Part shown: one piece after another, positions 24,512-27,231 of the stretch
Layout: every line of letters starts with the position of its first letter
How positions within the stretch are numbered: position 1 is the stretch's first letter
Source: Candidatus Bathyarchaeota archaeon
GTDB lineage: Archaea > Thermoproteota > Bathyarchaeia > TCS64
Direction of reading: 5' to 3'
Assembly: GCA_017883585.1 (NCBI GenBank)
Contig: JADGNG010000033.1
Coordinates: 1-32,161 of the forward strand
DNA: 32,161 nucleotides
Position numbers and translations under genes: made by a program
The notes under the pieces: generated by a model
What the model was told of the DNA's origin: nothing
Seen by the model: the letters and a program-made list of their open reading frames with translations, nothing else
Database searches by the model: none

Positions 24512-25927
24512 GTGATGAAGCCCCGGGTGAACCTCGTCTGCACCGAGTGCGGCTATGTATTCCCAAGCGACTCGGGCAAGAATAGGTGCGAGAAATGCGG
24601 GGGCATCCTCGAGTACGTCTGGGACGAGGAGTACCTCAAGACTGTAGAGTTCACGGGGGAGTTAAAGTTCTGGAGGTACAAGCCTGTTCTCCCACCGGTG
24701 AAGAAGCCGGTCAGCCTCGGCGAGGGGGGCACCCCGCTTCAGGAGGTTCAACGGCTGGCGGAGGCCCTTGGCTTAAAAAACGTCGCCCTTAAGGACGAGA
24801 CGCGGAACCCGACGAACAGCTTCAAGGACCGTTCCGCAGCGCTCATCATATCCGATGCCTCTGGGAAGGGCTTCGGCTCACTCGTCTGCGCCACGAATGG
24901 TAACCACGGGGCATCAATCGCGGCCTACTCAGCCAAGGCGAACATCGCCTGCCACCTAATCGTCCCGAAGGCACTGGACATAGGCAAGCTGGCCCAAATG
25001 ATGGTCTACAACGCCGAGATAGTCGAGTCGGGGGAGACGATCGAGGAGTCGATCTCTAGGGCGATCACTCTCGAGGGAGAGATGGGTTGGTACCAGGCAA
25101 CGACCGAACTCAATCCCTTGTCCATCGAGGGGCTGAAGACCATCGCATACGAGATTGTTGAACAAGGTGGTGAGCCGGATTGGCTGTTCGTCGCCATGGG
25201 CAGCGGTGTCACGATCAGCTCCCTGTGGAAGGGCTTCAAGGAGCTGGAGACCATGGGGAGAATACAAAAACTTCCAAGGCTCGTAGGTATTCAGGCTAGG
25301 GGTTGCTCACCCATAGTCTCTGCCTTCGACAGCGGCGACGACACCCCGAAACCGATGGAGCATGGCGAAACGGAGGCTACGGCAATCAGGGTCTCGCGAC
25401 CCATATTCGGTGAACTCGCGCTAAAGGCGCTGAGGGAGTCCAATGGATTCGCCGTCACGGTCAGCGACGAGGACATGCTCGCTGCGGGCCGGGAGATCGC
25501 TAGGTTAGAAGGCATATTTGCTGAGCCGGCGAGCGCCGCTACTGTTGCCAGTCTCAACAGCTTAGTCAAGACCGGGAAGATCGATCGGATCGACAGGATG
25601 ATATGCCTCATAACGAGCAGCGGCTTGAAGACGGATGACATCCTCCAGAGCCTCACTAAGCGGAAGAGGTCCCCAGGTTTGGGTTCCATGCTTACAACAA
25701 AGGAGAAGATCCTGCGCCACATCTCGGGCGGCGAAACCTACGGCTACGAGGTCTGGAAGGCCGTGGGGAAAGGGATGACCATCGGCGCCGTCTACCAGCA
25801 CATAGCAGACCTCGAGGAGAAGGGCCTCATCTCGTCCAGCCTACGCGGTAAGCGCAGATACTACGAGATAACGGATAGGGGCAAGCGGACCCTCTCAGCG
25901 TTGGACGATCTGCAGGTCCTCCTCTAG
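24512..25927 (+). CDS. thrC: Threonine synthase with C-terminal PadR-type winged-helix domain (about 25688-25927)
   Basis: CTECGY...CEKCGG zinc ribbon, NPTNSFKDRSAA PLP lysine, then EKILRHISGGETYGYEVWKAVGKGMTIGAVYQHIADLEEKGLISSSLRGKRRYYEITDRGKRTL in one ORF. Confidence 0.92.
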   Translation: MMKPRVNLVCTECGYVFPSDSGKNRCEKCGGILEYVWDEEYLKTVEFTGELKFWRYKPVLPPVKKPVSLGEGGTPLQEVQRLAEALGLKNVALKDETRNPTNSFKDRSAALIISDASGKGFGSLVCATNGNHGASIAAYSAKANIACHLIVPKALDIGKLAQMMVYNAEIVESGETIEESISRAITLEGEMGWYQATTELNPLSIEGLKTIAYEIVEQGGEPDWLFVAMGSGVTISSLWKGFKELETMGRIQKLPRLVGIQARGCSPIVSAFDSGDDTPKPMEHGETEATAIRVSRPIFGELALKALRESNGFAVTVSDEDMLAAGREIARLEGIFAEPASAATVASLNSLVKTGKIDRIDRMICLITSSGLKTDDILQSLTKRKRSPGLGSMLTTKEKILRHISGGETYGYEVWKAVGKGMTIGAVYQHIADLEEKGLISSSLRGKRRYYEITDRGKRTLSALDDLQVLL

Positions 25928-25971
25928 GCGAAGAACTATTATAGTTATAAGTATAATACTCGTAATCCAGT

Positions 25972-26715
25972 ATGAAACCTACAAACTTTTCACCAAGAAA
26001 TCTTGCCCTAATGGGGCTTTTTACAGCTTTAGTGTTTGTTGTAACCTCATCATTTTCAATATATGTGCCTGCTACTAGAGGTTTTTTTAATATCGGAGAT
26101 TCGATGGTTTTTCTTACAGCCTTACTCTTTGGTCCTTTAATAGGTGCTTTTGCTGGGGGCGTTGGATCAGCCTTAGCTGATCTTTGGCTTGGTTACCCTT
26201 ACTATGCACCTGCTACTTTTGTAATTAAAGGATTTGAGGGCTTTATAGTTGGTTGGCTTAGTAATAAGAAACCAACTTTATCTCCAATAAATTGGAAAAT
26301 CAGCACAATTACTCTGGGGGTTATTCTTGCTGGTTTATTGGGATATTTTGGCATCAATTATTACAGCGGTGAAACCGCGATTGCGTTAGGTAGTATTTCG
26401 TTTACATTAAACATACCTGCAATATTTTGGATATTACTTTCAGCACTTATTTTCATTTTCATTGCATGGTTGGGATGGAAAAACGAACCAGATACTGGTT
26501 GGACAATTATGTCAACTGTTATTGGGGGGCTTATTATGGTAACAGGCTATTATCTTTATCAGTTTTTCTTAATTGGTCCTCTCTTCCAAATACAAGTTGT
26601 AGCAATTGCAGAGTTACCAATTAATTTGGGGCAAATGATTGTTGGCATAGTAATTACTGTACCACTGTTTAAATCGGTTAAAAGATATCTACCTTTTTTA
26701 AATAATCCAAATTAA
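25972..26715 (+). CDS. ECF transporter S component-like membrane protein, AT-rich gene
   Basis: NLALMGLFTALVFVVTSSFSIYVPATRGFFNIGDSMVFLTALLFGPLIGAFAGGVGSALADLWLGYPYYAPATFVIKGFEGFIVG. Confidence 0.85.
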   Translation: MKPTNFSPRNLALMGLFTALVFVVTSSFSIYVPATRGFFNIGDSMVFLTALLFGPLIGAFAGGVGSALADLWLGYPYYAPATFVIKGFEGFIVGWLSNKKPTLSPINWKISTITLGVILAGLLGYFGINYYSGETAIALGSISFTLNIPAIFWILLSALIFIFIAWLGWKNEPDTGWTIMSTVIGGLIMVTGYYLYQFFLIGPLFQIQVVAIAELPINLGQMIVGIVITVPLFKSVKRYLPFLNNPN

Positions 26716-26843
26716 TGCGCGTCTGCATCGTAGACATTTTTAAAAAAAATAATTTAAGTCCAAAAATTCACTTCATTGTAGTTTTTCAATTCAAATTCAA
26801 CACTTTTTGTATCAGTAGTTTAAATTATCATAGGTGAAATGGT

Positions 26844-27231
26844 TTGCTAGGTTCACGAGAGCTAGCGGCGATAGCCGTGATGGCGGTGCTCTGCTTCGTC
26901 GCCACGTATTCGATAATGATACCGATCCCAGCCACCTAGGCTACTTCAACATTGGGAACGTTTTCATCATAATATCTGGGCTCGTGTTCGGATCCATAGT
27001 CGCCGGAGGCTTTGGCCCAGCGATATCTGACCGGATAGGCGGCTACTACTTCTCCGTGCCATTCACACTCATCATCAAGGGGTGCGAGAGATTTGTGGCT
27101 GGGTACGTCGGAGGGCGACTCGCGACCGCCAAACTGAACCGGGTGATCTTGGCCTGGACCCTGAGAGCGCGCGCGCTGGAGTCGTCGGGGTGCCAATCAG
27201 CCAGGCGCTGAAGACCCGAATCAAGCTCTAA
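26844..27231 (+). pseudogene. Decayed ECF transporter S component, three reading frames, internal deletion
   Basis: TTG 26844 behind SD AGGTGA: LLGSRELAAIAVMAVLCFVATYSIMIPIPAT* (stop TAG 26937); next frame GYFNIGNVFIIISGLVFGSIVAGGFGPAISDRIGGYYFSVPFTLIIKGCERFVAGYVGGRL; third frame AGVVGVPISQALKTRIKL* (stop 27229-27231). Confidence 0.8.

Follow-up and report, generated by a model that had tools for sequence, protein, structure and literature searches.

Does a threonine synthase that carries its own DNA-binding domain still make threonine, or has it become a regulator, and of which gene? This question is raised by a locus on a 32,161-nucleotide contig of a Candidatus Bathyarchaeota archaeon (JADGNG010000033.1, forward strand), the whole of which is referred to here as the window. 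An earlier note on this DNA had proposed that a threonine synthase (ThrC) is fused in frame to a PadR-type winged helix, and that the product is a trigger enzyme or autoregulator sensing threonine flux. The analysis described here favors a different role, in which the fused gene is likely to encode a transcription factor with a pyridoxal 5'-phosphate (PLP)-type sensor that controls vitamin B6 uptake, and not a threonine synthase.

Architecture and distribution of the fused protein

The fused gene is a single open frame without an internal stop. It starts with GTG at 24512, and the ATG at 24515 is an equally possible start. The following features were assigned to it.

24512 to 25927, + strand: fused gene, 471 aa, ThrC-like (fold type II PLP) putative sensor domain and C-terminal PadR-type winged helix (ORF, Pfam, AlphaFold)
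24539 to 24598, + strand: Cys4 zinc ribbon (C10, C13, C26, C29) (cysteine conservation in orthologues)
24710 to 25615, + strand: PALP/threonine synthase-like domain, residues 67-368 (PF00291; Foldseek)
25625 to 25690, + strand: flexible linker, residues 372-393 (pLDDT below 50)
25697 to 25921, + strand: winged helix-turn-helix and C-terminal helix, residues 396-470 (PF03551; AlphaFold secondary structure)

In Pfam searches, PALP (PF00291) matched residues 67-368 of the window protein (E = 5.7e-75) and PadR (PF03551) matched residues 400-462 (E = 3.6e-10; 40.1 bits against a cut-off of 27). With both domains above cut-off in one uninterrupted frame, the proposed fusion was confirmed. All four zinc-ribbon cysteines were invariant in a 10-sequence family alignment, and C26 and C29 were invariant in 44 fused proteins. 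An AlphaFold model of the monomer, built with 44 fused homologues (mean pLDDT 89.4), showed a ThrC fold, a disordered linker at residues 372-393, and a canonical winged helix composed of helices 396-405, 411-418 and 424-436 and strands 440-445 and 448-453. The best structural matches of the model, as determined by Foldseek, were threonine synthases, and the best sequence matches of the winged-helix part were PadR structures. The fold expected of the C-terminal extension was recovered by structure prediction as well as by PF03551. C-terminal to the winged helix, the monomer model contains one helix (455-470), and the PadR dimerisation region is short. Initiation at an internal ATG at 25688, which had been considered as a possible source of a stand-alone PadR product, found no support, as the methionine is confined to the genus and one other genome.

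When the same C-terminal extension was sought in ThrC homologues of related genomes, it recurred in most relatives, which rules out both a missed stop and an assembly join as the origin of the fusion. Almost every relative in the window's family and order has the fusion, and it also occurs in many other Bathyarchaeia, in other Thermoproteota, and in Thorarchaeota, Njordarchaeota and other Asgard records. Two fused subfamilies were distinguished: type I, which resembles the window protein and is about 470 aa long, and type II, of about 490 aa; one genome, G192 (L138), carries both. In family f11 (L060-L068, L165-L169), a normal unfused threonine synthase gene divergently adjoins the fused gene. 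Neither a ThrC-PadR fusion described as a regulator nor an archaeal B6 regulator was found in the literature searched, mostly outside subscription journals, and a survey of archaeal gene fusions reported CysH-ThrC as the sole ThrC fusion.

Active-site residues in the threonine synthase-like domain

Residues of 106 fused and 35 unfused homologues were compared in an alignment with the threonine synthase of T. thermophilus, which served as the numbering reference. In that enzyme, we take Lys61 to be the PLP Schiff-base lysine, Arg160 to be the arginine binding the phosphate of the substrate, and Asn87 and Thr317 to be contacts of the PLP ring. The two positions central to catalysis correspond to the following residues of the window protein.

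24824 to 24826, + strand: Lys105, aligned with Lys61 of T. thermophilus threonine synthase (residue alignment)
25121 to 25123, + strand: Ser204, aligned with Arg160 of threonine synthase (residue alignment)

The lysine at position 61 was lost in 88 of the 106 fused proteins, compared with none of the 35 unfused ones. Arg160 was kept in 28/35 unfused homologues and in 0/106 fused proteins, with Ser204 taking its place in the window protein. The PLP-ring contacts were retained in nearly all fused proteins (Asn87 in 105/106, Thr317 in 98/106). Because Arg160 was lost throughout and the PLP lysine in most members, it is very unlikely that the ThrC part functions as a threonine synthase, and we conclude with considerable confidence that the fused protein is not one.

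The 18 fused proteins with lysine at position 61 all belong to the window's order; in the others this position is occupied by Arg (61 proteins), Leu, Ile, Met, Thr, Ser or Val. In a tree of these proteins, the Lys-bearing clade was nested among Arg-bearing proteins, and its sister was an Arg-bearing protein of the same order (L026). The nesting indicates that the lysine of the window's lineage was probably regained, a reading that depends on the rooting of the tree. Given Lys105 at the PLP position, residual or new activity of the window protein is possible.

The same lysine bears on the trigger enzyme of the earlier note, that is, a threonine synthase that is active in the window's lineage, binds DNA and responds to threonine flux. 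Such a protein would be in keeping with Lys105, shared by the 18 proteins of the order, and with the score of the window protein on the TIGR00260 thrC model (194.8, above the cut-off of 167.1). We nevertheless regard it as very improbable, since the residue holding the substrate phosphate is serine in the window protein and is lost in all fused proteins, the Lys clade lies among Arg proteins, the window's own genome already has two unfused ThrC homologues with both Lys and Arg, and the single operator described below lies at another gene, with none at thr genes. This candidate was rejected on the lost residues and on the lack of operators at thr genes.

The NCBIfam model NF004170 (PRK05638, 'threonine synthase') describes the same fused architecture, its 442 positions covering window residues 9-464. 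The window protein scored 378 on this model, below the cut-off of 421. The members above the cut-off that were placed in the residue alignment (loci L100-L111) all read SFRDR and lack the PLP lysine, and for this reason the enzyme name of NF004170/PRK05638 is probably wrong. Models of threonine metabolism in archaea would be affected by such a misnaming.

The adjacent gene encodes an ECF transporter S component

Directly downstream of the fused gene lies a gene of the ECF transporter family.

25972 to 26715, + strand: ECF transporter S component (PF07155), HmpT/PdxU2-like, predicted vitamin B6 uptake, putative target gene (PF07155 E = 3.3e-37; HmpT profile match)

Neighbors were counted for the 91 unique fused genes that are flanked on each side by 1.2 kb or more. 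An S gene adjoins 67 of these, pdxS adjoins 4, and neither partner lies beside the other 20. Linkage to the S gene extends to Desulfurococcales-like genomes, where a gene for a two-domain ABC ATPase follows S, and to Thorarchaeota/Njordarchaeota. The S gene is downstream in the same direction in type I loci and usually divergent in type II loci. The EcfT component was not found in the window's genome, which is 85% complete, and was present in 27 of 31 relatives.

PdxU and HmpT both belong to PF07155 (PMC9997740). A profile of 16 partner S proteins had a single match in the PDB, chain S of 4hzu (HmpT/PdxU2; E = 7.6e-24), which leaves HmpT/PdxU2 as the sole relative of the partner S gene in the PDB; the structures of RibU, ThiT, FolT and BioY gave no match to the profile in the PDB, even at E 10. 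HmpT, which was initially believed to transport hydroxymethylpyrimidine, carries pyridoxamine as determined by mass spectrometry (PMC4860826). Six positions of the HmpT pocket were compared in the 16 archaeal proteins aligned. Tyr120, Asn140 and Gln143 were invariant and Glu41 was Glu or Asp; His84 was replaced by Lys and Gln87 by Glu in all 16. The corresponding residues of the window S protein are D43, K86, E89, Y193, N218 and Q221. Since two pocket residues are changed throughout, the substrate could be a different or phosphorylated vitamer.

Two further observations concern the genes around S. The interval 26834-27211 (+ strand) encodes a 125-aa fragment homologous to the S component (E = 4e-19) and appears to be a tandem duplicate of S that has decayed. 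An AIR-synthase-like gene, nearest to HypE/ThiL and below all cut-offs, follows S in 24 Bathyarchaeial loci (e.g. L053, L058, L069) and may belong to the same pathway as the S gene; its similarity gave no clear lead on function.

A palindrome precedes the S gene

A palindrome was identified in the interval between the fused gene and the S gene.

25937 to 25958, no strand assigned: predicted operator, palindrome TATTATAGTT-AT-AAGTATAATA, 13 bp before the S-gene ATG (family consensus)

In type I loci the stretch from the end of the fused gene to the start of S contains a palindrome with the consensus TAGTATAGTT-NN-AACTATACTA. Its 14-base core, allowing at most one mismatch, was present within 130 bp in 30/40 loci and 0 times in shuffles; four further type I cores lie more than 130 bp away, still before S. 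With one mismatch allowed, the core occurs a single time in the 1.6 Mb window genome. Across the class, the full operator (at most two mismatches) was found in 34/151 genomes, nearly always once, and the reversed-pattern control gave 0. Almost all of the retrieved sites (28/30) were at an S gene, mostly 4-38 bp upstream. In five genomes (G397, G408, G308, G027, G019) the operator also precedes S genes that are unlinked to the fused gene, which points to a regulator acting in trans.

The palindrome differs among the fused subfamilies. Type II loci have GCCTATATATAGGC or CCCATATATGG, common to the S and pdxST promoters, and Desulfurococcales-like loci have a third palindrome, around TTAAAGNNNAAACTTTAA (identified by eye). 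Operator and regulator subfamily change in step. Within genus g35, both carriers of the fused gene have the operator; among the 13 non-carriers there was one weak match, without an S gene. The predicted DNA target is well supported by these patterns, and the fused protein very likely regulates the neighboring S gene.

It could be argued that the winged helix does not bind DNA, that the fusion is a structural leftover and that the palindrome belongs to another regulator. The short PadR dimerisation region would fit such an account. We consider it highly improbable, given that the recognition region is strongly conserved, with Y428, Q429, H430 and L434 invariant in 44 proteins, that within a genus the operator goes with the fused gene and is otherwise missing, and that its sequence varies with the fused subfamily.

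No copy of the operator was found 5' of the fused gene itself, either in the window or in the rest of the genome, nor was a palindrome found upstream of type I fused genes. Because the sole genomic copy is at the S gene, the autoregulation and the control of thrC, kbl or tdh suggested by the earlier note were not substantiated. Its broader idea of a DNA-binding regulator agrees with the winged helix and with a palindromic predicted operator whose target is sometimes unlinked; its sensing of threonine flux does not agree with the losses of Arg160 and the PLP lysine. The divergent unfused threonine synthase of family f11 was also considered as a target and rejected, as the operator is found on the other side, at the S gene, and only one family has this neighbor.

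Vitamin supply and the likely ligand

For B6 synthesis, the PdxST route is reported to be the only one in use among archaea (PMC9997740). No pdxS gene was present in any genome of the window's order examined. Among 398 Thermoproteota, pdxS was found, among the matches listed, in 7/70 genomes with the fused gene versus 179/328 others, as raw counts that ignore phylogeny. In four genomes of two Bathyarchaeial genera, pdxS-pdxT lies divergent from the fused gene, a layout that is also that of bacterial PdxR and pdxST (PMC5320631). PdxS was missing in 52 of 61 Bathyarchaeial relatives and RibH in 59 of 61, suggesting wide dependence on imported vitamins.

With RibH missing, riboflavin too must be taken up from outside, and membership in PF07155 does not by itself settle the substrate of the S component. 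The same regulator and operator might accordingly serve another cargo and ligand, namely riboflavin, hydroxymethylpyrimidine/thiamine or metabolites of the threonine pathway. Besides the need for riboflavin, the Pfam name of PF07155 (riboflavin S component), the earlier assignment of hydroxymethylpyrimidine to HmpT (PMC4860826) and the divergent threonine synthase flanking the fused gene of family f11 would be compatible with one or another of these. We judge them unlikely, because the alternative partner in two genera is pdxS-pdxT, the sensor has the fold of a PLP enzyme and retains the PLP-ring residues, pdxS is depleted in carriers among the matches listed, and the S profile matches HmpT and none of RibU, ThiT, FolT and BioY. 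Riboflavin, the obvious reading of PF07155, was set aside since the S profile matches no structure but HmpT; the riboflavin auxotrophy keeps it as a rival. Vitamin B6 appears a likely signal of the fused regulator.

We propose that the N-terminal retired threonine synthase domain keeps the PLP pocket without catalysis and senses the supply of the cofactor, the ligand most likely being PLP itself. The PadR-type winged helix would bind, as a dimer, the palindrome in the promoter of the S gene, whose HmpT/PdxU-type product would import a B6 vitamer. When PLP is plentiful, binding would most likely repress B6 uptake, or PLP synthesis where pdxST adjoins; repression is favored because a site 13 bp before the S start would cover the archaeal promoter or transcription start.

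Comparison with known regulators

The proposed regulator resembles the bacterial MocR-type regulator PdxR in pairing a PLP-enzyme fold, used as a sensor, with a winged helix. PdxR controls pdxST and pdxU-type genes and is often divergent from pdxST (PMC5320631), and most of the fused genes adjoin an ECF-S gene or, in a few cases, pdxS. PdxR has an N-terminal GntR helix and a fold type I aminotransferase domain, whereas the fused protein has a fold type II threonine synthase domain and a C-terminal PadR domain and, unlike PdxR, has usually lost the PLP lysine. By this comparison the fused protein would work like MocR/PdxR, yet it would not be a member of that family, given its C-terminal PadR domain and fold type II sensor and the reported absence of MocR regulators from Archaea (PMC5320631).

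Among archaea, RbkR and ThiR are helix-turn-helix regulators of vitamin genes, as proposed here for the fused protein, and ThiR has a relation to an enzyme. RbkR combines enzyme and regulator, serves riboflavin and keeps its enzyme activity (PMC8305020); ThiR is a predicted regulator of thiamine transport (PMC10746257). No threonine synthase-based member was found among the archaeal vitamin regulators.

Taken with the comparison to PdxR, the fused proteins probably constitute an archaeal family of PLP-sensing regulators that was derived from threonine synthase independently of MocR and controls ECF-dependent B6 uptake or pdxST, with most members lacking the catalytic lysine and the window's lineage having regained it, perhaps for covalent PLP. 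If true, the joining of a winged helix to a retired PLP enzyme has happened on a second, unrelated fold, and archaea have a B6 switch of a kind previously unknown. Vitamin B6 transporters are poorly known (PMC9997740), and the locus offers a candidate B6 regulator together with a candidate B6 transporter in a large archaeal group. The short predicted operator makes the regulator testable in vitro.

One type II locus has a different neighbor. In genome G192 (L138), the type II fused gene faces a GNAT acetyltransferase gene across a perfect GCCTATATATAGGC; bacterial PdxR regulons also include RimI/RimL acetyltransferases (PMC5320631).
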